DNA of 40,504 nt. It comes from an uncultured Geobacteraceae bacterium (GTDB lineage Bacteria; Desulfobacterota; Desulfuromonadia; Geobacterales; Pseudopelobacteraceae). Of the stretch, positions 1,583 to 25,549 are shown piece by piece. Both the position numbers and the translations under genes were made by a program. Under the pieces are notes generated by a model that saw only the letters and a program-made list of their open reading frames with translations, was not told the DNA's origin and did not search any database. Each line of letters starts with the position of its first letter. Position 1 is the stretch's first letter. The DNA lies in assembly GCA_903879825.1 (NCBI GenBank), contig CAIRND010000619.1:1-40504 (forward strand), given 5' to 3'.

Positions 1583-2077
1583 TTAGCTATACATCCCGAT
1601 GGGAATGATCCCCTCCAGTTGTTTTACTCGAGCAAGGGCCGCTTCCAGCATTTCTTTTTGGTGCACCATCTGGTTACGCTGTCTCTTTACAGTAGCATCA
1701 CGTTCTTTAAATTCGAGATGGTTGCGTACACGCTGTTTGAGAAGGGCTAAATCCACCGGCTTTGTTATATAGTCATTTCCGCCAATATTAAGCCCTTGCC
1801 GTGTGCCTTCATAGGTATCCAGAGCACTGATAAAAATAACGGGGATATCATCGAATTGGGCACAACCCCTGATGATCTTACAGACTTCGAAGCCATTGAG
1901 ATCCGGCATCATCACGTCAAGAAGTATCAGGTCGGGTGTATGTTTCTTAAGCATGCTGATGGCCTCGTACCCATCCTGCGCGGTAAGAATGTCATACACG
2001 TCCTTGAGTGCTGATGATAAAAGTTGAATATTGACAGGTTCGTCATCCACAACCAGTATGCTTAAACGTTTGTCCAT
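1583..2077 (-). CDS. Stand-alone response regulator receiver protein (truncated)
   Basis: This protein of about 164 residues is a CheY-like receiver with a coiled-coil tail. The acidic pair is in VVDDE (residues 11-12), the phospho-acceptor is D54 ([10 protein letters not shown]), the conserved switch residue is in FISALD, and K106 is in TKPVD. Residues 115-155 are a charged coiled coil ending VKQLEGIIPIGMYS. No DNA-binding or enzyme domain follows, because the former cysteine-rich tail lies behind a stop codon. The ATG at 2077 is preferred over one four codons upstream, because AAGGAGG abuts that upstream codon. Its receiver closely resembles the N-terminal receiver of the kinase at 2998-5028, suggesting local duplication. 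It probably exchanges phosphate with one of the nearby hybrid kinases; this is inference. Confidence 0.9.
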   Translation of the reverse strand: MDKRLSILVVDDEPVNIQLLSSALKDVYDILTAQDGYEAISMLKKHTPDLILLDVMMPDLNGFEVCKIIRGCAQFDDIPVIFISALDTYEGTRQGLNIGGNDYITKPVDLALLKQRVRNHLEFKERDATVKRQRNQMVHQKEMLEAALARVKQLEGIIPIGMYS

Positions 2078-2242
2078 AAGGCTTTTCATCCTCCTTATTT
2101 AGCGATTGCGCAAACGCCACGGTGACTGCCAGGCTCACTGCACAACGGGTGAACGCCGTGCGAAAAAGCTGTGACAACTCACTCAGCTCGCTAATTCTAC
2201 GTCGGTTTTTTGGGACTCGCTCTTATCGGCCTCTTTTAAACC

Positions 2243-2290
2243 ACAGTAGAGCCAATTTTGGCCGCTGTCTATTAGGGTAAACTCTTAGAA
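2243..2290 (-). promoter_or_regulatory. Promoter copy A with conserved upstream block
   Basis: On the minus strand a -35-like TAGACA (2266-2271) and a -10-like TACTGT (2243-2248) are separated by 17 bases. Directly upstream lies a 19-base block, plus-strand ttagggtaaactcttagaa (2272-2290). The same block occurs at 21704-21722 and 25531-25549 with one base different in each case, always in the same position relative to the -35 box. This copy is the weakest match to a sigma-70 promoter. It would drive the receiver gene starting at 2077 with a leader of about 160 bases. Confidence 0.6.
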
Positions 2291-2374: not shown

Positions 2375-3013
2375 TCATTCTTCTGAATCATGTTCCATCA
2401 GTTCCGCGACGACCGCCCATCTGGCAAGAATTGCCACGTTTGAGGCACCCAGTTTATTCATTAAATTGTACCGGTGTGCCTCAATGGTCTTCACGGAGAC
2501 CACCATCTGTTCGGCAATTTCTCTGGATGTAGCACCTTTTCCAATCATCAGCAGAACACCCAGTTCTTTCCTGGTAATGTTCCTCGTGCGGAAGATAGCC
2601 TCTTCCTTCTGAAAAGCTGATGTGTCGTGCCGTTGTACAATTAACTCATGGCGTCGAATCCGGCCGATAACAGCAGCAAGCAGTTCATCGGCAGAAAATG
2701 GTTTGGGCAGATAGTCATCGGCTCCTTCTGTCATGCCACGGCGGATTTCGATGCGCTCCCCCAGAGCGGTCACGAAAATAAATGGAATACCAGCAAGTGC
2801 GTTATCACTCTTCAACGATTCCAAAACATAATAGCCATCGGTATCCGGCATCAAAACATCGCACAAAATCAGGTCCGGACGTTGTTTGCGAAGCAGGGCA
2901 AGACCAGATTGCCCATTCGAGGCGGATGAAACCGTAAATCCCTCCATCTGGAGAATTGTTTCCATCATCTCCATGTAAGTGGGATCGTCTTCTATAATCA
3001 ATATGGAGTACAT
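2375..3013 (-). CDS. NarL/FixJ-type response regulator (receiver plus LuxR DNA-binding domain)
   Basis: This 212-residue protein has a receiver at residues 1-120 with the acidic pair in IEDDP, phospho-acceptor D52 (LILCDVLMPD) and a lysine in PKPFS. A LuxR-type helix-turn-helix follows at about 148-205, including GATSREIAEQMVVSVKTIEAH. Such proteins are activated by aspartate phosphorylation and bind promoters as dimers. It is the last gene of a three-gene overlapping operon behind two sensor kinases, so it is the most likely transcriptional output of that system. The start overlaps the upstream gene by 16 bases and has AAGGAG eight bases before it. It is the only DNA-binding response regulator in the window, despite eight kinases. 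Confidence 0.93.
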   Translation of the reverse strand: MYSILIIEDDPTYMEMMETILQMEGFTVSSASNGQSGLALLRKQRPDLILCDVLMPDTDGYYVLESLKSDNALAGIPFIFVTALGERIEIRRGMTEGADDYLPKPFSADELLAAVIGRIRRHELIVQRHDTSAFQKEEAIFRTRNITRKELGVLLMIGKGATSREIAEQMVVSVKTIEAHRYNLMNKLGASNVAILARWAVVAELMEHDSEE

Positions 3014-5028
3014 GAAGTGATCTCCTTATTACCGCTCAGATTGTTATCAATCGGAATTTCAACCCGTATTGTGGTCCCTTCGCCAATTTTGCTGTTCAAC
3101 GATATGGTTCCGCCTATCAGTACCAATGATTCCTGAACAATAGAGAGGCCCAGGCCCAATCCTCGTCGATCTCCAATATTCTGGCAGCGATAGAACGCAT
3201 CAAATAACATCGTCAGGTCCTCTTCCGGAATGCCGATACCCTTGTCGCTGATCTTCAGATGCAACCGGTTATTTTCCCGATGGAGGTACAACGAAACGTA
3301 CCCTCCTGGCGGGGTATAGCGGAAGGAATTGGTCAACAAATTTTCAAGTATCCGCCTGAATAGCGTCTTGTCCAAAAGGATAATTCCGCAGTTTGGATCA
3401 ATCGTAACGTCAAAAACGTGTTTGGCGCCCCAAACCTGTACTATTTCTGCGGCTATAGACTGGCAGAACTCTTCAATGTTTAGAAGGTCAAGAGACTTGG
3501 ACGGTATGCTGGTTCCCGCCTGGATAAACATGATAATCGAGTTGAGCATAGTGCTTAATTGTCGCGCAGCACTCTGGATATGCTCATTCTGCTGGCTCCG
3601 CTTTTCCGGGGTCATACGATCCCAGTAGCGATCAATAATATCGGTGCAGCCGATCAGCAGGCCGAGAGGAGTCCGAAATTCGTGGGCTAACGTGCGCAGT
3701 AAGCGACTCATCGTGCTGTTGGCACTCTTGGTCTCTTCGAGAGCGTTCTGTAATTCATCCAGAATCCTTTTGCGCCAGGTTGTTTCCCGAATCGTGGCGA
3801 TAACCCCGATTATTTTACCATCAGCATCCCGTAAAGGGACACTCAGATCGGAGTTCCATCCCGTTTTTCCCGTTTCTGGAACCGAATAGGGGAAGTCCAT
3901 GGTGGTCGGCAGATCTCCGGCCAGAACCTTTTCCAGACGTTCTATCATGCCAGATGCCTCGACAAACGGGAATAATTCCGACGGATGTTTACCCAAAACT
4001 TTGTCGGCTGCCATTCCGCTCATTTGTTCCATAAAGGGGTTCCAGACCCGATAACGTAAGTTCAGGTCATAGACAATCACACCCTCCTGGGCGCTGTTTA
4101 TGATCTGTTCACTGAATTGGTTTGCTTCTCGCAGTTCCATTTCGGCCTGTTTAAGCTCTGTAATGTCGCGAATGCTTTCAATTACACCTGCAATATTGCC
4201 AGAGTCATCGTGCAGTGGCGAGGCCTTGGCAAAGACCCAGGCTCCCTTGTTTTTGTAGAGTGATTTGCAAAATACTTCTCCCATAAGGGCGTCGCCTGTA
4301 CGAGTAACCTTAGGATAGCAGACCCCTGCCTGCTCACTATTGCCCAAAACCAGATCCATCAAATTTGGCCGCACCTCTCCGTGAAATGGAATGGTGTAGG
4401 CGTTATCCTTTTTACCGAGCATCTCGGCGGCCGGAACACCGGTCATTTTCTCTATGGCGCGGTTCCAGATAATGACACGGCCTTCTTTATTAATAGCCAA
4501 CGTAGCGTCCGGTAAAAAATCAATAACATCTGATAACTGGTTCCGGCTTCTCCGTAATTCGGTCCTTGTCGACCGCAACTGCTCATTTATAAACTCCAGC
4601 TCTTTTTTTTGGAGTACAAGCAGATCTCGCTGTTCCTTTATCAGTGCATTACGCTCTTTCAAGTCAAGATGGTTGCGCACTCGCAGCTTGAGCAGGTCTA
4701 AATCGACTGGTTTTACCAGATAGTCAATACCGCCGGCATTAAGCCCGTGCCGTATAGCGTCATGGGTATCCAACGCACTGAGAAATATAACGGGGATATC
4801 TGAATAGACGGTATTGGCCTTGATTATTTTACAAACCTCGAAGCCATTAATATCCGGCATCATAGCATCAAGGAGAATCAAGTCAGGTGTATGCTCCTTA
4901 AGCTGACTGATGGCATCGTGCCCATTCAGCGCAGTAACTATGTCGTACGAATCTTTAAGCGCAGAGGAAATAAGTCGGATATTGACACGTTCATCATCCA
5001 CAACCAGTATTTTATGTCGTTTATTCAT
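2998..5028 (-). CDS. Receiver-PAS-PAS-histidine kinase (cytoplasmic)
   Basis: This 676-residue soluble protein starts with a receiver (residues 5-120, D54 and K106). A coiled coil (about 120-175) and two PAS domains (about 175-295 and 300-420) follow. The dimerisation/phospho-acceptor helix has H449 in LAHEFRTPLG. A complete HATPase_c domain follows, with the N box near LLTNSF and a G box DKGIGIPEED. There are no membrane segments or signal peptide. The order suggests it receives phosphate from the larger kinase encoded just upstream and modulates its own kinase, feeding the LuxR-type regulator encoded next. It overlaps the upstream gene by eight bases, with GAGGGA before its ATG. The first PAS is strikingly similar to the second PAS of the kinase at 16969-19269. 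The receiver resembles the protein at 1583-2077. Confidence 0.93.
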   Translation of the reverse strand: MNKRHKILVVDDERVNIRLISSALKDSYDIVTALNGHDAISQLKEHTPDLILLDAMMPDINGFEVCKIIKANTVYSDIPVIFLSALDTHDAIRHGLNAGGIDYLVKPVDLDLLKLRVRNHLDLKERNALIKEQRDLLVLQKKELEFINEQLRSTRTELRRSRNQLSDVIDFLPDATLAINKEGRVIIWNRAIEKMTGVPAAEMLGKKDNAYTIPFHGEVRPNLMDLVLGNSEQAGVCYPKVTRTGDALMGEVFCKSLYKNKGAWVFAKASPLHDDSGNIAGVIESIRDITELKQAEMELREANQFSEQIINSAQEGVIVYDLNLRYRVWNPFMEQMSGMAADKVLGKHPSELFPFVEASGMIERLEKVLAGDLPTTMDFPYSVPETGKTGWNSDLSVPLRDADGKIIGVIATIRETTWRKRILDELQNALEETKSANSTMSRLLRTLAHEFRTPLGLLIGCTDIIDRYWDRMTPEKRSQQNEHIQSAARQLSTMLNSIIMFIQAGTSIPSKSLDLLNIEEFCQSIAAEIVQVWGAKHVFDVTIDPNCGIILLDKTLFRRILENLLTNSFRYTPPGGYVSLYLHRENNRLHLKISDKGIGIPEEDLTMLFDAFYRCQNIGDRRGLGLGLSIVQESLVLIGGTISLNSKIGEGTTIRVEIPIDNNLSGNKEITSCTPY

Positions 5029-8000
5029 TAATTCCCTCGTTCACCATTGCCCCTATAACCCGCTTCATCTCACAAATGAGTTCCCTGCTTTCAAGAGGTT
5101 TGGAAAGATACCCGTCAAAGCCATTTTCCAGGAACCGTTCTTGATCTCCTCGTAACGAGTGGGCTGTCAGAACAATAACCGACTGGTGCAGTGAAGTTTT
5201 TATTTCTTTTCTGCGGATTTCCTTCAGGGCTTCTTCGCCGTCCATTACCGGCATCTGGATGTCCATCAACACAAGATCAAATGTGGCCTTCTCCAGAGCA
5301 GCAAGACATTCTCGACCATCGTAGACAGCATGCGCTTCGTGCCCAAGCTTTTTGAGAAGTGATAGACCAAAATTGACGCTGGTCTGATCGTCTTCGACAA
5401 GCAGTATCCGCAACGGAGGTCCATCCCAGAGCGCGGTAATTATCTGGGGGGAGTCAACAATCACATTCAAACTGTTGGATACTGTAAATGTAAGATTTAT
5501 CCTGAAACAGCTTCCAACTCCGACGGTGCTTTCAACGGAGAGGCTGCCGCCCATGAGTTCTGCCAGACGGTGACTGATGGCGAGACCGAGTCCGGTTCCC
5601 CCGTACTTACGACTTATGGAGCCATCTTCCTGGGTGAATGGTGTGAAAATGCGCTCCAAAAAGTCTCGAGAAATACCGATGCCGGTATCACGCACTGCTA
5701 TCTGTACAAACACTGAATTGTCATTTTGTTCAAGGAGTTGTGTCGAGACCGTAATCTCTCCCATGGGCGTGAACTTGATTGCATTACCCAGGATGTTAAG
5801 GAGAATTTGCTTGACCCGCATCTGGTCTCCCACAAGTATGTTGGGGATATCATCGTCAAGCTCAACATTCAGGCGTAGCCCTTTCCCCTGGGCTACCTGT
5901 CTTTGCATAATGGCAATTTCCTTGATGATTTGCTGTAGGCTGAAATCTGCTAATTCCGCTGTTAACTTTTCTGCCTCGATTTTGGAAAGATCAAGAATGT
6001 CGTTGATGAGGGAGAGCAGATTTTTACCGGACGATCTAAGGGAAGCAACATACTCGTGTTGCTCCTCGGTCAGGTCGGTCATTTCCAGAAGTTGAGTCAT
6101 ACCGTACAGGCCGTTCATGGGAGTGCGGATTTCATGGCTCATGTTGGCTAAAAACTCACTCTTTACGCGGCTGGCGGATTCGGCAGCCAGCTTTGCCTGT
6201 CTCAGCTCACCTTCAAGTTGTTTTAACGCACTGATATCCATGTGCTGTATTACGGCGTTCGTTATCTGTCCTTCAGAACCAAAAACCGGTGATATGGTTG
6301 TCTCAAGAATTGTCTGTGATCTGTTTTTTAGATGCATATTTGTGAGCAGAGAGGTGTCATAGGCAAGGGTAAAGCGTTCTGTCGTGCCTTTATCAAAGAC
6401 ATTCCGGACCTGACCCATAAACCCCTGTTTTTCAACCAGAGGGTCTTTGAAAATGTTATATATGCCAACAATTTCTCCGTCTGTAACATTGAGTTGATTT
6501 CTTAATGCTTGATTAGCCTTGAGGAGAGTGCCTTTGTCATCTGAAACCCACATGCTTACAGGGCTTTGTTCGATGATGCTTTCCTGAAATGCACTTGATT
6601 TCTGTAAGGCGTCCTCTATTCTTTTGCGGGTGGTGATGTCCGTAGCAATGCCCCCTATTATGAAGGTTTCACTCCCCTGTTCATGCAGGTTGGTTGAACG
6701 GTCGTTAAGCCATACCCAGCCCCCGTCAGCATGAAGGAAGCGGTATTCAAGATTGAACGGCATACCCGCTTTGAAGTATTCTATGGCCAATTTCACCTGT
6801 GGCAGATGGTCTGGATGTATCGATTCTTGCCAGCACATCGGATGTTCTAAAAGGTACTCTGGCGAATAACCAAGTACTGTTAGCGTTGCCGGTGAGAAGT
6901 AGATTCCACCATGTGCAGGGTCGAATGAATAGACAATGTCGGGCAGGACATTGATAAGATGGCGATACTTTTCTTCGCTTTCACGCAACTTGCGTTCTAT
7001 CCGCTGGCCCTCGGTGATATCCTGAATGAAACCCAATATTTTGACCGGATTTCCCTTCAGATCTCTTATCAGCCTGGCGATCGAATGTATTATCTTTTGA
7101 GGAGAGCCGTCTGCGGGGTTAACTGCAAATTCAAGATCGTATTGGCTCTCCTCACGTATCAGGTCTTCAAGCGCTTGATGAACACGCTCACGTTCTGGTA
7201 TGCAGGATTCGATGTTTGCTATGGGAAAAAAACCGGCAACTGAAGGAAAACCAAACAAGCGGAGTCCCTCGGCTGACCCCCAAATTTGGTCTGTTTCAAG
7301 GTTGTATATCCAGGAGCCGGTTTTGCCAACCTCCTGCGACAGAGACATCTGCTCTTCGCCTTCCCGAAGAGTTTCTTCCAACTGCTTGCGTTCGGTGATG
7401 TCAGTACATGAACCAATGTAGCCACTAAAAAGGCCTTGTTCGTACGTCGGAGTACCATTATCCAGTAACCAACGATATGTGCCGTCAAATCTTCGCAGGC
7501 GATATTCCATCGAGAACGGCTGACGGTTATCAAAGTTGGTTACATAGGTGTCAAGGCAACTATCAAAATCTTCCGGATGAACGCCTGCCGCCCAGCCGTT
7601 GCCGATTTCTTGCTCCAGTGTACGGCCGGTAAAATCAATCCACACCTTATTGAACCAGGTACAGAGTTTGTCCGTTCCTGAAATCCAGATCAGAACCGGG
7701 GCCGAATTGGCCATGCCTCTGAAGCGCTCCTCACTTTCTCTGAGCTTCCCTTCGATCATTTTGCGTTCGGAAATATCGCGGATTATATGCACCGCCCCTT
7801 CAAAAGTCCCGTCTTCTGCAAACAGTGGCGTAACGCTTATATGTAGGAACTTGTCCTGTTGCGGTTCATACATTTCTACAGAACATTCTTTCCGCTCCTT
7901 CAGACATTTGACGAGCATACACCCGTCACTCGGCTCGTTCAAGCCATGCATCAGGGAGAAGCACTTCATTCCGACCAACTCTTCATTGCTCATTCCAACG

Positions 8001-10123
8001 GATACTTCAAAAGCCCTGTTGACTTTCGCTATCGAGTAGTCTGGGGCGATAATCGCTACTTGATCAGACATTACATCAAACGTCCTGCGCCATTCATCTT
8101 CAGCCGTTTTCAGCATTAATTCAGCCAGCCTTAACGCGGTTACGTCCTCAAGCAGCCAGATGATGCCCTTTGACATGTCCGGGGGGGCGACGGCTTTACC
8201 AACATATCTGACTTGAAGATGAGTGCCATCTTTTCGGACCAAATCCTGGACTGTTTCAAATATTTTCCCCTGAGCCAACTGCGGGTATGCCTCAACGCCA
8301 AACTTTTCGAACGCTTCATCGGACGGGTACATTGTTCTGGTGCTTTGAACCTTCAGCTCTTCCTTTGAATACTGGAAAAGTTCAACGGTCTTGCGGTTAA
8401 CCAATACCTGCTTTCTGTCGATAGTTTTTGAAATTCCGATCGGGGCATTTTCCAAAATGATATTCAGCTCATTGGTTCGTTCCTCAACCTGCTGCTCCAG
8501 CGTTTCATTGATCTGCCTGATCTGGATGAACTGCTCTGCCAGCCAAGCCGCCATCTCCCTGAAATTAAAGACCAGATCGTTTGCCTCTTGAATGCTGCTT
8601 TCTGGCCAGGCAATATCTTGGCTGCCAGTTGCAAGCCTGGCAGGTAGAACAGTCGTTAGTGAACGGAGCTGTTCCAAGGTAGTTGAGAGTCTGCGGCTTA
8701 TTAATTCTGCCAAGCCCAGCGCTCCAAGCAAAATCAGGAACAATAAAATCAGTTTACCGGTGTATTCGTCGTAGAGGGCTTTTTGAAAGGGCGCCACTGG
8801 TTGTTCCATAATCAGCCGCCACTCAGCCAGATCACCAATAACCACATCCGTAATATAGAAAGATTTCTTCCACCGCTCCGAGGTTGGGGTATTAGGGGGC
8901 ACCGCCGGCACCCACTGATGCACCCCGTTTTCAAGATAATTAAGAGTTCCCTTGCTGCGCGCAAAGGGTGTCATAACCGTTTGGTCAGTGCGGTTCGTCA
9001 TAATAACGTTACCGTTCTTATCGACCACTGTGTAGAGCGTGGCATACTGGTTGGTACTTTCATCAAGGAGTTCCCGTATCTGATCCAGATTCAGCACGCC
9101 AATGACGTAGCCGCCGTATGTTCCCCCGATGATTACCGGCGCAAGCACGCTGACTCTCGGTTTGGGAATGCCGACTCTGCCCATAACCACTTCCGAGAGC
9201 ATCGGCGTGAGCCGTTGCCTGAGCTGCGCAATAAACGGGCGATCGGCGTAGTTTTTACCAATGCTGTTTTGTCCCAGTTCATCAAGCAACGGAAAGTACG
9301 CGGTAGTCATCGAATCTTTGTCGTGCAGCCCGACCCGCACAAAATTGGCATCCGCCTTCTTTGTCTGTTCAAGGAAGGGCTGCATCTGCTTCGGAGATCG
9401 TGAGGTCGCCATCGCTGCCAGATTGATAATGGCGGTTTTTCTGTTCAAAGCCCAGGTTGCCAGGCTATGGGCAGTATGCCGGCTTTCCTGCAGCAGCATG
9501 GTGCTAATAGTGGTATCGTTTTTTTTGAAATCAGTTCTACTGCCAACCGCCAGCAAGATCAGCGACGGGCACAACACGAAAAAGGTCAGCAGGTTATAGA
9601 TAATCTCGCGGTAAGATACCTGCAATGAGCGGTTTCTACTGGCGTATCCAGAAAAGATCAGGCGGGCGATAAGTACATTTGAAATGCCATTCACCGCTTG
9701 TTTGACCATGACGATGAGGGTATTACTGGGAGGAACATGCATGATGATGTTGTAGAAAAAATAAACCAGCGGCATACCGATAACAAGCCAAAAGAGCACA
9801 TCAGCAAGAACCATACTATTCTTGCGCCGACTTGTCAGCACACCAACAACGGCAACTTCCGCCGTCTGGATAATTATGCCATAGGGGTGATTCCAGAGAA
9901 AGAAAGTGTAACTGGCGATGAAGGCCGCCGCCAGAACCCCTCTGCCAAGACCAAAGAACTGAAGTGCCAACATGGCGAAGATACTGCCAAAGAGGAAATT
10001 AATATTGAGGAAGATCTCGAAGTTGAAATAATTAGCAACCAGACCGGAGGCGATGAGCCCCAGTAAGAGAAGGGTTCGGTATTTGTCATTATTGCAAGAA
10101 TTAGCCGGTGGCACGGGGGTCAT
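5021..10123 (-). CDS. Giant membrane hybrid sensor kinase (multi-TM, dCache, six PAS, HisKA, HATPase, receiver)
   Basis: At 1700 residues this is the largest protein here. Residues 15-195 contain about five or six hydrophobic segments forming a membrane module. Residues 205-450 look like a periplasmic dCache sensor, followed by a membrane segment at 457-475. Six PAS domains lie at about 550-670, 680-790, 797-912, 925-1040, 1050-1168 and 1177-1300. The second contains an unusual cysteine cluster (C721, C735, C740, C747). The HisKA phospho-acceptor is H1330 (NMSHEIRTPMNG), followed by HATPase_c (about 1435-1545) and a receiver with D1621 (LVLMDIQMPVMDG). It is the first gene of the operon leading to the receiver-kinase and the LuxR-type regulator. 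The start has CAGGAG at a suitable distance. The ligand cannot be read from sequence. Confidence 0.93.
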   Translation of the reverse strand: MTPVPPANSCNNDKYRTLLLLGLIASGLVANYFNFEIFLNINFLFGSIFAMLALQFFGLGRGVLAAAFIASYTFFLWNHPYGIIIQTAEVAVVGVLTSRRKNSMVLADVLFWLVIGMPLVYFFYNIIMHVPPSNTLIVMVKQAVNGISNVLIARLIFSGYASRNRSLQVSYREIIYNLLTFFVLCPSLILLAVGSRTDFKKNDTTISTMLLQESRHTAHSLATWALNRKTAIINLAAMATSRSPKQMQPFLEQTKKADANFVRVGLHDKDSMTTAYFPLLDELGQNSIGKNYADRPFIAQLRQRLTPMLSEVVMGRVGIPKPRVSVLAPVIIGGTYGGYVIGVLNLDQIRELLDESTNQYATLYTVVDKNGNVIMTNRTDQTVMTPFARSKGTLNYLENGVHQWVPAVPPNTPTSERWKKSFYITDVVIGDLAEWRLIMEQPVAPFQKALYDEYTGKLILLFLILLGALGLAELISRRLSTTLEQLRSLTTVLPARLATGSQDIAWPESSIQEANDLVFNFREMAAWLAEQFIQIRQINETLEQQVEERTNELNIILENAPIGISKTIDRKQVLVNRKTVELFQYSKEELKVQSTRTMYPSDEAFEKFGVEAYPQLAQGKIFETVQDLVRKDGTHLQVRYVGKAVAPPDMSKGIIWLLEDVTALRLAELMLKTAEDEWRRTFDVMSDQVAIIAPDYSIAKVNRAFEVSVGMSNEELVGMKCFSLMHGLNEPSDGCMLVKCLKERKECSVEMYEPQQDKFLHISVTPLFAEDGTFEGAVHIIRDISERKMIEGKLRESEERFRGMANSAPVLIWISGTDKLCTWFNKVWIDFTGRTLEQEIGNGWAAGVHPEDFDSCLDTYVTNFDNRQPFSMEYRLRRFDGTYRWLLDNGTPTYEQGLFSGYIGSCTDITERKQLEETLREGEEQMSLSQEVGKTGSWIYNLETDQIWGSAEGLRLFGFPSVAGFFPIANIESCIPERERVHQALEDLIREESQYDLEFAVNPADGSPQKIIHSIARLIRDLKGNPVKILGFIQDITEGQRIERKLRESEEKYRHLINVLPDIVYSFDPAHGGIYFSPATLTVLGYSPEYLLEHPMCWQESIHPDHLPQVKLAIEYFKAGMPFNLEYRFLHADGGWVWLNDRSTNLHEQGSETFIIGGIATDITTRKRIEDALQKSSAFQESIIEQSPVSMWVSDDKGTLLKANQALRNQLNVTDGEIVGIYNIFKDPLVEKQGFMGQVRNVFDKGTTERFTLAYDTSLLTNMHLKNRSQTILETTISPVFGSEGQITNAVIQHMDISALKQLEGELRQAKLAAESASRVKSEFLANMSHEIRTPMNGLYGMTQLLEMTDLTEEQHEYVASLRSSGKNLLSLINDILDLSKIEAEKLTAELADFSLQQIIKEIAIMQRQVAQGKGLRLNVELDDDIPNILVGDQMRVKQILLNILGNAIKFTPMGEITVSTQLLEQNDNSVFVQIAVRDTGIGISRDFLERIFTPFTQEDGSISRKYGGTGLGLAISHRLAELMGGSLSVESTVGVGSCFRINLTFTVSNSLNVIVDSPQIITALWDGPPLRILLVEDDQTSVNFGLSLLKKLGHEAHAVYDGRECLAALEKATFDLVLMDIQMPVMDGEEALKEIRRKEIKTSLHQSVIVLTAHSLRGDQERFLENGFDGYLSKPLESRELICEMKRVIGAMVNEGINE

Positions 10124-19509: not shown

Positions 19510-21135
19510 TTACAATTTGAACTGGCGCACGATCAACCTCAAGTTGTCCGCCATTCCGGAAAGCTGTTCAGCAGCGACGGCAGATTGTTGGGCGCCGCTG
19601 GCTGTCTGGGCGACTGCGTCGGTAATCTGCTGCATATTGCTGCTGATCTCCGAGGTGGTCGCTGTCTGCTCTTCTGCGGCGGTGGCTACCTGGGCAATCT
19701 GGGAAGTTACGGCATTGATTTGCTCAAGGATCTGTTCAAGCGCCCGCCCGGAGTTGGCAGCGGTATCACTCCCCTTGGCAACTTCATTAACCCCTTCCTC
19801 CATAGCGACCACTGCGCTCTTGGTCTCAAGCTGGATTGTCTTGATCATCTCGCCGATTTCACGGGTTGCCCGGGTTGTTCGCTCGGCCAGCGCCCGTACC
19901 TCGTCGGCAACAACGGCGAAGCCGCGACCCTGGTCGCCGGCTCGGGCCGCCTCTATGGCAGCATTTAATGCCAATAGGTTGGTCTGGTCGGCGATATCCT
20001 CAATGGTGCCGACAATCGTACCGATCTGTTCGGAACGGAGGCCGAGATTTTCAACCGCTTTGGCGGAACTTCTGACCAGTCCGGCAATTTTGTTCATAAC
20101 AATAATTGTCTCATCCACGACCTTGGCACCGGAGACCGCTGCGGCACTGGCCTGCTGTGAACCTTCGGCGGCATACTGACAGTTCTGGGCAATATCGCCG
20201 GAGGTGGCCGACATCTCTTCCCCTGCGGTGGCAACGGTCCCCGCCTGGGCAGAGACCTCTTCCGATCCGGTCGCCATCATCTGCGCAGATGCATTAAGCT
20301 GGCACGAGGCAGAAGCGACCTGATGAGTGGTGTCGGAAATTTTGTTCATAATGCCGTGGAGTTTATCGACGAAGACGTTGAACCAGCGGCTAACCTCACC
20401 AAGCTCATCTTTGGAGTCACCGTCAAGACGTTTGGTCAGATCGCCTTCCCCTTGGGCGATATCCTTTACCATGTCACGCATTTTGCCAAGTGGGGCCGTT
20501 ATACTTCTGGTGATTAACAGAGCGGCGGCACTGGCAAGCAATATGGCGATGAGAGTCGTAACAAGCAGTCCGGTCATCGCTGCTTGGAAGACGGCGGCAG
20601 CTTCTGTCCCGGCTTTTTCTATCTGTTCATTCTGATAGGCGATTAACTCGCCAAATGAGTTTTCAAGCGATGTAAGAGCCGGTGTCCATTCACTTCTGAG
20701 AATTGTATCGGCTTCGGCCTGATTTCCGGCAAGAGCGAGTGTTATGATTTTATTGCTTATGGGTGACAATTGCGCCGTGGCCTGTTTTATCCTCTCGATC
20801 AGCGCCTTACCTTTGTCACTTTTTTCCAGCTCGCCAAGCTTTTTGAATGCCTCACCGTAATGGGTTCGATTCTCCCCAATATGTTTTTGTTCCACGGCCC
20901 TGAAGGCCGGATCTTCGACGGCTATTATCAGCACAACCGACTTGGCAACTTTCTGAATACTTTCCAGTGAGCCTGTTGCTGCAATAACCTTAGGCATCTC
21001 AATTCTTGCAATCTCGCTCACTTTAGCCTGCATTTTGTGCAACTGCACATAGGCGAACAGAGCCATAGTGGCAATCAAAACGACCATACCTCCGAAACCG
21101 AGGCTTAAGCGTGTACCAATTTTTAGATTCTTCAT
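19510..21135 (-). CDS. Methyl-accepting chemotaxis protein (4-helix-bundle sensor, HAMP)
   Basis: This 541-residue transmembrane receptor has helices at about 10-32 and 187-209, with a periplasmic helical bundle of roughly 155 residues between them. HAMP follows at about 208-262 and the cytoplasmic signalling hairpin tip at about 380-420 ([20 protein letters not shown] and [10 protein letters not shown]). The tip is the part that contacts CheA and CheW. No CheR/CheB-binding pentapeptide is visible at the C-terminus. It lies 52 bases downstream of the pseudo-receiver gene and probably shares promoter copy B. AAAGGAG precedes the ATG at a slightly long distance. The ligand is unknown. Confidence 0.94.
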
Positions 21136-21187: not shown

Positions 21188-21598
21188 TTAGCACGCAGCT
21201 TCGCCGCCCCTCACTGGGGAAAGGTCATTGTTTAGTTGCTCCCTCATACTGCTCATGCAAAAAGGTTTGGGGACAAAGCGGCTGATATGCCCTTGTCTGA
21301 TCGCCTGGCCCACATCAGCAGGACACGCACCTGAGGTCAAGATTCGTACCGTCTGTGGATACAGTTCACTGACGCGGCGCAGAAATTCAAGCCCGTCCAT
21401 CCATAACAAACTGAAGCTGGATATGACGATATGGAAGGGCGTTTCTGATTCCAATAATTGCAGTCCAGCCTCTGCGGAGTTGGTAGTGACAACCTGAAAC
21501 CGGTCTTTCAACACGATTTTCATCACCTCCCGCATCTGCATGTCTTTATCAACGAAGAGGATTCTACCGTGTGCAGATGGCTGTAGAGAATTGTTCAT
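21188..21598 (-). CDS. Pseudo-receiver protein lacking the phospho-acceptor aspartate
   Basis: Taken from the ATG at 21598 the product has 136 residues with a receiver fold: an acidic pair as FVDKD, the beta-5 lysine in VPKPF, and a switch position in ILTSGA. The position of the phosphorylated aspartate reads IVISSFSLLWMDG, with serine where D is expected, so ordinary phosphorylation should be impossible. It may act as a constitutive or protein-binding adaptor. The frame is open further up to a TTG at 21703, but that TTG is the -35 box of promoter B and cannot be the start. The ATG itself lacks a good ribosome site; a strong one (21635-21642) serves a 12-codon upstream frame whose TGA overlaps this ATG. 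A decayed paralogue lies at 25060-25425. Confidence 0.8.
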   Translation of the reverse strand: MNNSLQPSAHGRILFVDKDMQMREVMKIVLKDRFQVVTTNSAEAGLQLLESETPFHIVISSFSLLWMDGLEFLRRVSELYPQTVRILTSGACPADVGQAIRQGHISRFVPKPFCMSSMREQLNNDLSPVRGGEAAC

Positions 21599-21630
21599 AC
21601 AGAGGTCAATCTTGTTGTGTGAAATGGCAA
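21595..21630 (-). other. Possible 11-residue leader peptide coupled to the pseudo-receiver gene
   Basis: On the minus strand GAGGAGGT (21635-21642) stands four bases before a TTG at 21630. The frame runs 11 codons to a TGA that overlaps the ATG of the pseudo-receiver gene as ATGA. This would give the receiver gene the ribosomes its own ATG seems to lack. The alternative is a rare ATT start about nine bases after the same ribosome site, in the receiver frame. Sequence alone cannot decide. Confidence 0.35.
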
Positions 21631-21674
21631 TCAGACCTCCTCGATCAAAAGTAGTTTTTATGCTCACGGCTTTT

Positions 21675-21722
21675 TTTATACGGGTGATATTTTTCTCTGT
21701 CAATTAGGGTAAACACTTAGAA
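21675..21722 (-). promoter_or_regulatory. Promoter copy B: sigma-70 consensus with conserved upstream block
   Basis: The minus strand has TTGACA (21698-21703), a 17-base spacer and TATAAA (21675-21680). The 19-base block ttagggtaaacacttagaa (plus strand, 21704-21722) directly abuts the -35 box. On the promoter strand the block contains two CTAA elements 13 bases apart, one touching the -35 box, as expected for a regulator binding as a direct repeat. It should drive the pseudo-receiver gene and the chemoreceptor at 19510-21135. Confidence 0.82.
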
Positions 21723-22089: not shown

Positions 22090-22700
22090 TCATTTCTCAT
22101 TGATGAGCCACATACCCAACTTCACCAGCAAGTCAGCTAAAATGAGCGGTTTAGATAGATGGTCGTCCATTCCGGCGGCGATGCATCTGTCACGATCCTG
22201 CTTCGAAGCGTTTCCGGTGAGCGCAATTACCGGAATGTCGTGCCGACGCACGGCAGAAGCCTGATCGCGAATGGCGGCGGTGACTTCGTAACCATTCATT
22301 TCCGGCATCATGCAGTCCATCAATACCAGCGCATAGTCGTTATTCTCAAGCGCCTCCACCGCTTCTTTGCCATCACCGGCAACATCTACCTGATAGCCAT
22401 AGTTTTTTAGCAGCTTGGGTATTATTTTCTGTGCCCTTGGATCGTCCTCAGTCAGCAGGATGCGGATTCCGGTGGCGTTTTCCTTCTTTGGAAGCGGCGA
22501 AACCGTAAGCTCTTCGGAAGCAGGGCAGATACGTTGGTCTGTTCCGACCTCCTCTTGCTTCTCCATTACCACGGTGAACCAGAAGGTGGAGCCCACACCC
22601 TCGGTACTTTCCACGCCGGTACTTCCCCCCATCAAGTCTGCCAACCGTTTGCAAATTGCCAGTCCAAGTCCAGTGCCACCATATAAACGTGTAAGACCCT
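22090..22700 (-). pseudogene. 3' fragment of a solute-binding hybrid kinase gene copy (end of HATPase plus intact receiver)
   Basis: The frame begins around the ATP-binding G2 box ([20 protein letters not shown]) and runs through a complete receiver ([30 protein letters not shown]). It is closely similar to residues 1009-1199 of the kinase at 13181-16837. At DNA level 22166-22194 is identical over 29 bases to 13308-13336. All sensor, PAS and dimerisation domains are missing. The homology starts between about 22685 and 22710, just beyond the stop of the chemoreceptor gene. No ATG with a ribosome site is visible; a TTG at 22644 could start a 184-residue product. The receiver residues are intact, so expression as a free receiver is possible but unproven. 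Confidence 0.82.
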
Positions 22701-22733: not shown

Positions 22734-24422
22734 TTAGATTGAATATTTCATAAATTCATCGTCCAGATGGTCGGAACCAGCAGAACCCATATTGAGGGCA
22801 ATTCCTCTGCTTTTCGTTGCAACAGGTTTATGGACAATATGCCCTGAGTGAGCAAGTTGCACACGTTTTTGGATTGGACGGCGTGTGCCGGCATTGGATA
22901 TTTTTCTTACCGAACTGCTGTCGATACGGAAGAAGGATATTGCATCCTTGAGCTGTTCCGCTTGGCTGGAAAGTTCTTCCGAGGTGGAGGCCATCTCTTC
23001 CGAAGCGCTGGCATTCTGCTGAATGACCGTATCAAGCTGCTGGATCGCTTTGCTGATCTGATCTGCGCCGGTGTCCTGTTCTCTGCTCGATGCTGAGATC
23101 TCCTGGACCAGTTCGGCGGTCTTCTGGATGTCAGGCACCATCTTGTTCAGCATCTCGCCAGCTGTCTCGGCTACCTGTACACTGCGTGTGGAAAGAGTAC
23201 TAATCTCTCCGGCTGCGGTTTGACTTCGTTCAGCCAGTTTCCGGACTTCAGAAGCGACAACGGCAAAACCCTTGCCGTGTTCACCGGCCCGAGCGGCCTC
23301 AATAGCAGCGTTTAGCGCCAAGAGGTTGGTCTGGCGGGCGATTTCTTCAATGATACTGATCTTGGTGGCGATCTGTTTCATGGCGTTTACTGTTTCAGTT
23401 ACCGCTTTGCCACCTTCGCTGGCATCGGCCGCACTCTTGACGGCGATCTTCTCGGTCTGGGAGGAGTTGTCGGAGTTCTGCTTGATACTGGAACTCATCT
23501 CTTCCATTGAAGAGGATATCTCTTCAGCTGATGCCGCCTGCTCAGTTGCGCCCTGGGACATCTGCTGGGCTGTGGCTGAGAGTTGCTGGCTGCCGGCGGC
23601 GACGTTGTCAGAGGCGCTCATGACATCACCGACAACTTGCTTGAGTTTTTCGACCATATTTTTGATGGACTCGAGCAATTGGCCGGTTTCGTCCTTGCTC
23701 TTTACCTCGACATTCACGGTCAGGTCGCCGGCAGCCAGTGAATTGGCAATGGCAACAGCCTCAGACAAAGGGCGCACAATGCCACGGGTAAGGAAAAAAC
23801 CGGTAAGAACCGCTATCAGAAATGCAGCAGCACCTAAACCGAACATCAAGTTACGTGAAGTGACGTAGTCTGCAATCGCCTCTTCGTAGCGCATAACATT
23901 CCGTTCGGCGTTATGCTCAATCAGTCTTTCTATATGTCCGCTAACCAAACGCTCTGCAGGACCAGCCTCCTTGCTCAATAGCTGTCCAGCCTCCTTGTCA
24001 TTGTTAGCTATGGCTAACTCCATGACTCTGGCATTCAAGTTTCGGTAGTTCGTTAGACTTTCTTTGATATTGTTGATAATTTCCCATGATTTTGAGTCAC
24101 TCTTGGTGGTCATCTCTTCCACTTTTTTGAAGTTCTTTCCATATTCCTCGCGGAATTTGGAGATACGCTCACTGTATTCCTTCTTTTTTTCAGAGCTGTC
24201 GCTTACAATCATGTTCCGGACGTTGATACCGATGTTAGCAATGTCTTTGTCCATATCTGCAATCAGGGCAATCCTTACCGCGTTAACTTTCACAATCCTT
24301 TCCAGGTCTTTATTAATCGACGACATCCCCCTGACCCCAATCCAAATCATTACAGCCATTAGCACGAGTACCAGGCCAAACCCCAGTGTCATTCTCTTAC
24401 CGATCTTCATATCCGCGAACAT
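22734..24422 (-). CDS. Methyl-accepting chemotaxis protein (4-helix-bundle sensor, HAMP)
   Basis: From the ATG at 24422 the product has 562 residues. The frame continues seven codons further up, but AAAAGGAG sits correctly for this ATG. A membrane helix near the N-terminus (about 10-32), a helical periplasmic domain and a second helix (about 192-212) are followed by HAMP. The signalling hairpin contains [20 protein letters not shown] and [12 protein letters not shown]-terminal extension of about 60 residues ends [10 protein letters not shown]; it could be a tether for adaptation enzymes, though it is not the NWETF-type pentapeptide. CheW is encoded 50 bases upstream, so the two should be co-expressed. 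The receptor differs in the hairpin helices from the one at 19510, so the two are not recent copies. Confidence 0.93.
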
Positions 24423-24472
24423 AGAAACTCCTTTTGGACTCATTTCAATTAATTGTATTCACAATTTTTAGC

Positions 24473-24964
24473 TTATTTCGATGGTTCTTTTCCTGTAACA
24501 GGCACCAGCTCTTCACTGGAAAACAACTTGTCGATATCAAGAATCATGATGAACCGATGATCGTGCTTTCCCATCCCCTTGATGAAATTGGAATTCAGCC
24601 GGGTGCCAATATGCGGAGCCGCCTCAATCTGTGACGCTTCCATCTCGATCACCTCCTGCACACTGTCAGCCAAGGCACCCAGCACGATCAACTCGTTTTC
24701 CAGTTGTACCTCGACCACGATAATGCACGTATTGACCGTCCGCTCTGTTCTGCTCATGCCGAACTTCAGGCGCATATCTATTACCGGGACTACGCTCCCT
24801 CGCAGGTTAATGACCCCCCTCATAAAATCAGGAGTCTGCGGCACCTTGGTGATGCTGCTCTCCTCCAGGATCTCGCGTACCTTGGCCACATCCAGGGCAA
24901 AGGTCTCGTCACCCAGCTTGAAAGTCAGGTACTGCACCGATTCTGTAATATAGGTACCGCTCAT
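24473..24964 (-). CDS. cheW: CheW chemotaxis coupling protein
   Basis: This 163-residue protein is a single CheW domain with the typical elements YLTFKLGDETFALDVAKVREI near the N-terminus and MRGVINLRGSVVPVIDMRLKFG at about 44-65. CheW links chemoreceptors to the kinase CheA in the membrane array. It is encoded directly upstream of the receptor gene at 22734 and directly downstream of a decayed pseudo-receiver gene. The start has CAGGAG at good spacing. The closest candidate promoter is copy C, about 540 bases upstream, across the decayed gene. Confidence 0.95.
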   Translation of the reverse strand: MSGTYITESVQYLTFKLGDETFALDVAKVREILEESSITKVPQTPDFMRGVINLRGSVVPVIDMRLKFGMSRTERTVNTCIIVVEVQLENELIVLGALADSVQEVIEMEASQIEAAPHIGTRLNSNFIKGMGKHDHRFIMILDIDKLFSSEELVPVTGKEPSK

Positions 24965-25059: not shown

Positions 25060-25425
25060 ATCATTTGTTGCTTCCGCATGTGCTGCTAATGCAAAAGGCT
25101 TTTGAAATAAAGCGGCTGGTATGCCAATTGCTTGTTGCCTGTTCTAAATCAATTGGTCAAACGCCTGAGGTAAAAAGCTCGTACCGTCTGTGGATATTGT
25201 CTGCCCTCACGGCGCAGGCACGTAAACCAGTTCATTCATAAAAACAGTAACCGGAAATAATGTAAATATGGAGTGGGATTTCTGATTCCAGGCATTGCAG
25301 TGCAGCCTCTGTGGATATCGTGGAGACAATCTTAAGCCAGCCTTTCAATAGGATTTTCAACATCGGCAGAATCTGGATGCCTTTATTGACGTAAAAGTAT
25401 CGATGGTGGTGGGAAAGTGATCAGA
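25060..25425 (-). pseudogene. Decayed copy of the pseudo-receiver gene
   Basis: The DNA aligns along its length with the intact gene at 21188-21598. Shared stretches include plus-strand gcctctgtggatat/gcctctgcggagtt, cgtaccgtctgtggata (both copies) and gcaaaaggcttttg/gcaaaaaggtttgg near the end. The reading frame is broken by many substitutions and small indels, the start codon is lost, and the ribosome site seen in the intact copy is absent. The promoter in front of it (copy C) is nevertheless almost identical to copy B. The decay pattern suggests an old duplication of promoter plus receiver in which only the promoter has been kept. Confidence 0.82.
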
Positions 25426-25501
25426 CATCGATCAATTTTGCAGTTAGAAATGGTAATCGTGGCCTTCACGATCCCGGAGCTATTTTTATGACTGCGGACT
25501 T

Positions 25502-25549
25502 TTTATAAGGGTGATATCTTTCTCTGTCAATTAGGGTAAACCCTTAGAA
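25502..25549 (-). promoter_or_regulatory. Promoter copy C: sigma-70 consensus with conserved upstream block
   Basis: The minus strand has TTGACA (25525-25530), a 17-base spacer and TATAAA (25502-25507). The plus-strand block ttagggtaaacccttagaa (25531-25549) abuts the -35 box as in copy B. The spacer differs from copy B at only two positions. The gene immediately downstream is dead, so conservation of both boxes suggests the promoter now serves cheW and the receptor at 22734 through a long leader. Confidence 0.8.

Follow-up and report, generated by a model that had tools for sequence, protein, structure and literature searches.

The window analysed here is the whole 40.5-kb contig C619 of an uncultured Geobacteraceae bacterium (genome G000; 4 Mb in 705 contigs, about 89% complete). 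The contig is rich in genes for sensor kinases, receivers, chemoreceptors and CheW proteins, nearly all of them on the minus strand, and cheA was not found among the proteins scanned. Two homologous copies of a receiver segment, one decayed and one intact, lie 3.8 kb apart, each with genes of chemosensory signalling behind it:

25502 to 25530, minus strand: core promoter of the dead copy, with TTGACA (25530-25525), a 17-bp spacer and TATAAA (25507-25502); 11/12 consensus positions
25060 to 25425, minus strand: dead receiver gene, read as an untranslated leader (29% divergence, frame-breaking indels, codon-position pattern)
24473 to 24964, minus strand: cheW, the first intact gene behind the preserved promoter (Pfam CheW, E = 4.6e-40)
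22734 to 24443, minus strand: methyl-accepting chemotaxis protein (4HB-HAMP-MCPsignal by Pfam), the second gene behind the preserved promoter
21188 to 21631, minus strand: intact pseudo-receiver gene, start uncertain (Response_reg, E = 4.2e-11; the open reading frame of the prediction tool is 21188-21703)
19510 to 21135, minus strand: chemoreceptor downstream of the intact pseudo-receiver (Pfam)

Between the two receiver units, at 22090-22700, there is also a 5'-truncated hybrid-kinase remnant consisting of the end of an ATPase domain and a receiver. The closest named relatives carrying this receiver are uncultured Geobacteraceae MAGs.

The decayed receiver and its conserved promoter

Positions 25060-25549 (minus strand) align to 21232-21722 (minus strand) with 70% identity (E = 1.5e-52), and a genome search yielded no third full-length copy of the receiver segment. 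The body of the remnant differs from the intact copy at 112 of 387 aligned positions (29%) and by six indel events of 1, 11, 3, 1, 1 and 2 bases, five of which break the frame; stops occur in all three frames, and the ribosome site reads GTGAAGG, compared with GAGGAGG in the intact copy, so that the loss of both frame and ribosome site in the original prediction is borne out. With receiver relatives from two other genomes (G023 and G031) as outgroups, the dead branch has 19, 15 and 5 changes in codon positions 1, 2 and 3 (5/39 in position 3), and the intact branch has 3, 0 and 10 (10/13 in position 3). The agreement required between the outgroups biases the counts against position 3, but equally on both branches, and the contrast therefore stands. 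With its frame broken and codon constraint lost, 25060-25425 is a pseudogene, a decayed copy of the receiver gene 21188-21703, which itself is under coding constraint.

The loss of a start codon from the remnant has to be qualified: the dead copy has ATT exactly where the intact copy has ATT. The intact copy contains no ATG, GTG or TTG in frame at normal spacing from its ribosome site; the in-frame candidates are ATT at 21631 or CTG, and the first in-frame ATG lies at 21598, which makes ATT (21631) the likeliest putative start. The product is not a canonical phospho-receiver: in the alignment, the acceptor Asp is replaced by Ser, and by Gly in the G023 and G031 relatives. Known pseudo-receivers likewise lack Asp at the acceptor position, and the Lys of the KPF motif is kept here; unlike other pseudo-receivers, these form a small stand-alone family which opens sensory operons in three species. 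In G023, a related chemoreceptor, 47% identical to that at 19510-21135, is likewise located behind the pseudo-receiver.

In contrast to the body, the promoter block (TTTTCTAAG...TATAAA) is identical between the dead and intact copies at 46 of 49 positions. The three differences, a T/G change in the upstream part and the changes A/G and G/T within the 17-bp spacer, are placed exactly as stated in the original prediction; a one-base indel in an A-run follows the -10 hexamer. The comparison of substitution densities that had been proposed as a check shows the promoter to be far better kept than the body (3/49 versus 112/387 changed; Fisher P-value = 2.4e-4), the best 49-base stretch of which reaches 40/49 matches. 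The homology between the copies starts abruptly at TTTTCTAAG, the DNA upstream being unrelated and at background identity, and on the other side of the block 10 of 23 leader positions are changed.

Both receiver copies have a near-consensus TTGACA-N17-TATAAA core, that is, -35 and -10 hexamers within the 16-18 bp spacing of predicted sigma-70-type promoters. The preserved core is the best such candidate on its strand between 24965 and 25560 (11/12; next best 9/12), and was missed by a standard promoter scan that demands T at position 6 of the -10 hexamer. A better separate promoter before cheW was thus sought in the sequence and not found, nor was a terminator-like site in the leader between the promoter block and cheW. 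Transcription is predicted to start near 25495, in agreement with the earlier estimate, which would give cheW a leader of about 530 nt. The positions of promoter and genes thus predict a long transcribed leader, as would be expected if the remnant RNA had a function of its own, either as a small RNA or, as suggested earlier, as a structured leader. We consider this highly improbable: the leader folds no better than its shuffles (z = -0.29; 38 of 100 at least as stable), no Rfam family matches it, and the remnant has diverged by 29% with indels.

Three operator copies linked to a regulator gene

The operator part of the block recurs at a third place in the window, close to a two-component system:

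25524 to 25549, minus strand: operator before the dead receiver, TTCTAAGGGTTTACCCTAATTGACAG (genome match; top matrix score in the window, 22.7 bits)
21697 to 21722, minus strand: operator before the intact receiver, TTCTAAGTGTTTACCCTAATTGACAG, with the core TTGACA-N17-TATAAA extending to 21675 (21.8 bits)
2265 to 2290, minus strand: third operator, downstream of the regulator gene, TTCTAAGAGTTTACCCTAATAGACAG, with a weak core TAGACA-N17-TACTGT extending to 2243 (21.4 bits)
2375 to 3013, minus strand: FixJ/NarL-type response regulator (receiver and GerE/LuxR helix-turn-helix by Pfam), the proposed binder of the three operators
2998 to 5028, minus strand: histidine kinase overlapping the regulator gene, its likely partner (Response_reg-PAS-HisKA-HATPase)
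1583 to 2089, minus strand: receiver-only protein behind the third operator (Response_reg, E = 5.8e-28), starting about 200 nt from it

The conserved block TTCTAAGNGTTTACCCTAATNGACAG has exactly three matches in the genome when up to 3 mismatches are allowed, all of them in this contig and oriented like the genes, compared with 0 matches for control patterns; the next-best match to the operator in the window (15/24) is at shuffle level. The third copy, 84 bp downstream of the regulator gene, corresponds to the 26-bp operator part and is devoid of receiver homology. Because of this lack of receiver homology and its poor core promoter, the unit shared by the three places is the operator rather than the promoter alone. 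The same genome search gave no operator match at a paralogous cheW-chemoreceptor pair on another contig (C629; L064:1215-3448), the products of which are 74% and 65% identical to those in the window. A search for the 47-bp block in other species of the genus gave no match, since they share no more than the operator core, in diverged form. The open-access literature yielded no description of this operator.

The third copy also bears on whether the likeness of the two promoters reflects recent gene conversion, or a late local exchange, instead of selection. Homologous copies 3.8 kb apart could exchange sequence, but identity drops on both sides of the block, a tract of about 50 bp matching just the operator and promoter would be an unlikely product, and the third site retains the operator without any flanking homology, all of which leaves conversion with a slim chance.

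The product of 2375-3013 contains a receiver (PF00072, E = 3.8e-29) and a GerE helix-turn-helix domain (PF00196, E = 1.9e-14), as expected of the FixJ/NarL class, matches the FixJ structure 5xso over its full length and, read by eye in the translation, has the acceptor Asp (PDLILCDVLMPD). Its orthologues across the genus are 49-64% identical. In 15 other genomes of the genus, the orthologue has a related site just 3' of the gene, about 35-230 bp behind the stop codon, with the consensus TAGGTnTTTCCnnCAATAGACAG. A matrix was built from 14 of these foreign sites, with nothing taken from the window (the fifteenth, that of L077, has the same sequence as one of the 14). It ranks the three sites of the window first to third, at 22.7, 21.8 and 21.4 bits, with that of the dead gene highest, whereas the maximum in 400 random sequences of the same dinucleotide make-up was 20.7 bits and their third-best match never exceeded 13.3 bits.

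The site recurs at the orthologous position: on leaving one out, it was the top match of its locus in 14/14 training loci, and in other genera and families the best match lay 24-183 bp after the regulator stop codon in 8 of the 9 loci outside the training set, three of these eight scoring modestly (5.6-15.0 bits) and the ninth locus ending at a contig edge. Three loci of the same genus (L081, L082 and L084), with regulators 54-55% identical and complete flanks, have no site. A generic pattern, GNATTTCCCACAATAGACAG, was also tried with 3 mismatches and matched about as often as its reversed control, and the analysis was hence restricted to the matrix and to matches linked to the regulator.

The motif is similar to FixJ sites in the literature, namely the fixK-type site TAAGTAATTTCCCTTA and the SELEX-derived GTAGTTTCCC (PMC4999443). 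As in FixJ/NarL systems, a receiver is combined with a GerE helix-turn-helix, the kinase gene is adjacent, and a TAAG-N-TTT-CCC-type operator is located just upstream of the -35 hexamer. Unlike in FixJ, the operator in the window is placed 3' of the regulator gene and recurs within one sensory cluster; FixJ sits with an oxygen sensor and fixK, and no such link was seen at this regulator.

These comparisons weigh against two simpler readings of the block. One is an ordinary sigma-70 promoter, constitutive and without a regulator of its own, in which only the -35 and -10 hexamers are selected for the sake of cheW and the chemoreceptor; this would fit the near-consensus TTGACA-N17-TATAAA in both receiver copies. 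However, most of the conserved 26 bp precede the -35 hexamer, they are present again downstream of the regulator gene, where the -35 and -10 hexamers are poor, and their upstream part is common to the foreign regulator-linked sites, so that we regard this reading as unlikely. Three copies in one contig might alternatively point to a small repeat element of the REP or MITE kind with no regulatory site; with just three copies in the genome, in one orientation and each ahead of a transcription unit, and with related sites similarly placed behind orthologous regulator genes in other genera, this is barely credible.

Copied promoters and gene remnants in relatives

The window is not alone in having copied promoters accompanied by gene remnants. 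Contig C2 of G024 contains four strong sites within 23 kb, and contig C90 of G031 contains two within 6 kb, each set on a single strand. One of the G024 sites (L125:3334) precedes a STAS-domain gene without its first half, the intact version of which is found behind another site (L125:10041). Around this half-lost gene (L125:2700-3370), a second operator-promoter occurs 365 bp further. The second C90 site of G031 (L128:2600-3080) carries along the leader and initial codons of the gene that follows the first site, fused in front of a receiver gene, and on another contig of this genome (C78), which involves a non-orthologous regulator, a copied promoter is still attached to the tail end of the regulator gene.

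A second system was noted in the relatives, in which GGGGTAGGACAAAACCTACCCC and TTCTAAnTTAnCCGACT come after a kinase and a LuxR-type regulator; one of the copies retains a remnant of the regulator tail. The sites of this system are:

L038:3300-3380 and 8730-8805
L037:7290-7365
L062 near 6230-6300

The TTCTAAnTTAnCCGACT and GGGGTAGGACAAAACCTACCCC promoters near regulators of G023, G031 and G013 were considered as instances of the same operator and rejected, the regulator being only 24% identical to that of the window; they are treated as a putative parallel system.

In promoter capture, a gene and its promoter are copied together, and once the gene has decayed the promoter comes to serve the next gene. 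The locus described here is similar in having a copied promoter, a decayed passenger and a next gene that would be served. It departs from the general case in that the copied promoter is assigned to a cluster-specific two-component regulator, with comparable remnants in G024 and G031. We tentatively suggest, at somewhat less than even chances, that FixJ-type operator-promoters of the Geobacteraceae spread within sensory clusters by small segmental duplications, after which passenger genes decay and promoters stay. The dead receiver might then be one of several such remnants, alongside those in G024 (C2 near 159.3 kb) and G031 (C90 near 67 kb), and, with the same reserve, the G031 case on C78 near 8.7 kb might be counted as a remnant belonging to another regulator. 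Such spreading would then be a general way for a local two-component regulon to expand.

Proposed control of cheW and the chemoreceptor

We consider it likely that the element kept in front of the dead receiver is the operator-promoter of the regulator encoded at 2375-3013. Selection is proposed to have maintained it for its role in driving cheW (24473-24964) and the chemoreceptor gene (22734-24443). The original prediction was thus right in outline in attributing the preserved promoter to selection for these two genes, but missed the operator of the regulator, which explains the conservation better. In the proposed mechanism, the regulator, on a signal from its partner kinase (probably that encoded at 2998-5028), would occupy TTCTAAGNGTTTACCCTAAT, immediately 5' of the -35 hexamer, and switch on sigma-70-type promoters in three positions of the cluster: downstream of the regulator gene itself (2290), in front of the pseudo-receiver and chemoreceptor unit (21722) and in front of the dead copy (25549). 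Operator, promoter and receiver would have been duplicated together, as a segment of about 490 bp, and the receiver of one copy would have decayed into an untranslated leader, through which transcription would have to read to reach cheW. The regulator is presumed to activate these promoters and not to repress them.

Several considerations speak against this explanation. Rho could cut the 530-nt untranslated leader, although the first genes behind other sites of this class are up to about 475 nt away. The -10 hexamer of the third site is weak, and L081, L082 and L084 are loci without the site. Moreover, the homology starts exactly at the operator, and the duplication may have ended at this left edge.

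Chemotaxis genes of Geobacter, in which cheW and mcp genes likewise occur in multiple clusters, are under sigma-28 and sigma-54 regulation (PMC2577667). In contrast to such control, the present proposal combines a FixJ-type operator with a core of the sigma-70 type, and no sigma-28 or sigma-54 consensus was recognised by eye at the block. If the proposal is true, a dedicated two-component system, rather than sigma-28 or sigma-54, switches the cheW and chemoreceptor genes. The mechanism itself appears to be ordinary two-component activation, and the unusual part appears to be how the regulon grew, indicating that local regulons can expand when a promoter is copied and the passenger gene is left to decay. 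The 26-bp operator and its regulator provide a testable target for the FixJ-type two-component systems of the Geobacteraceae, a large set that appears to be uncharacterised.
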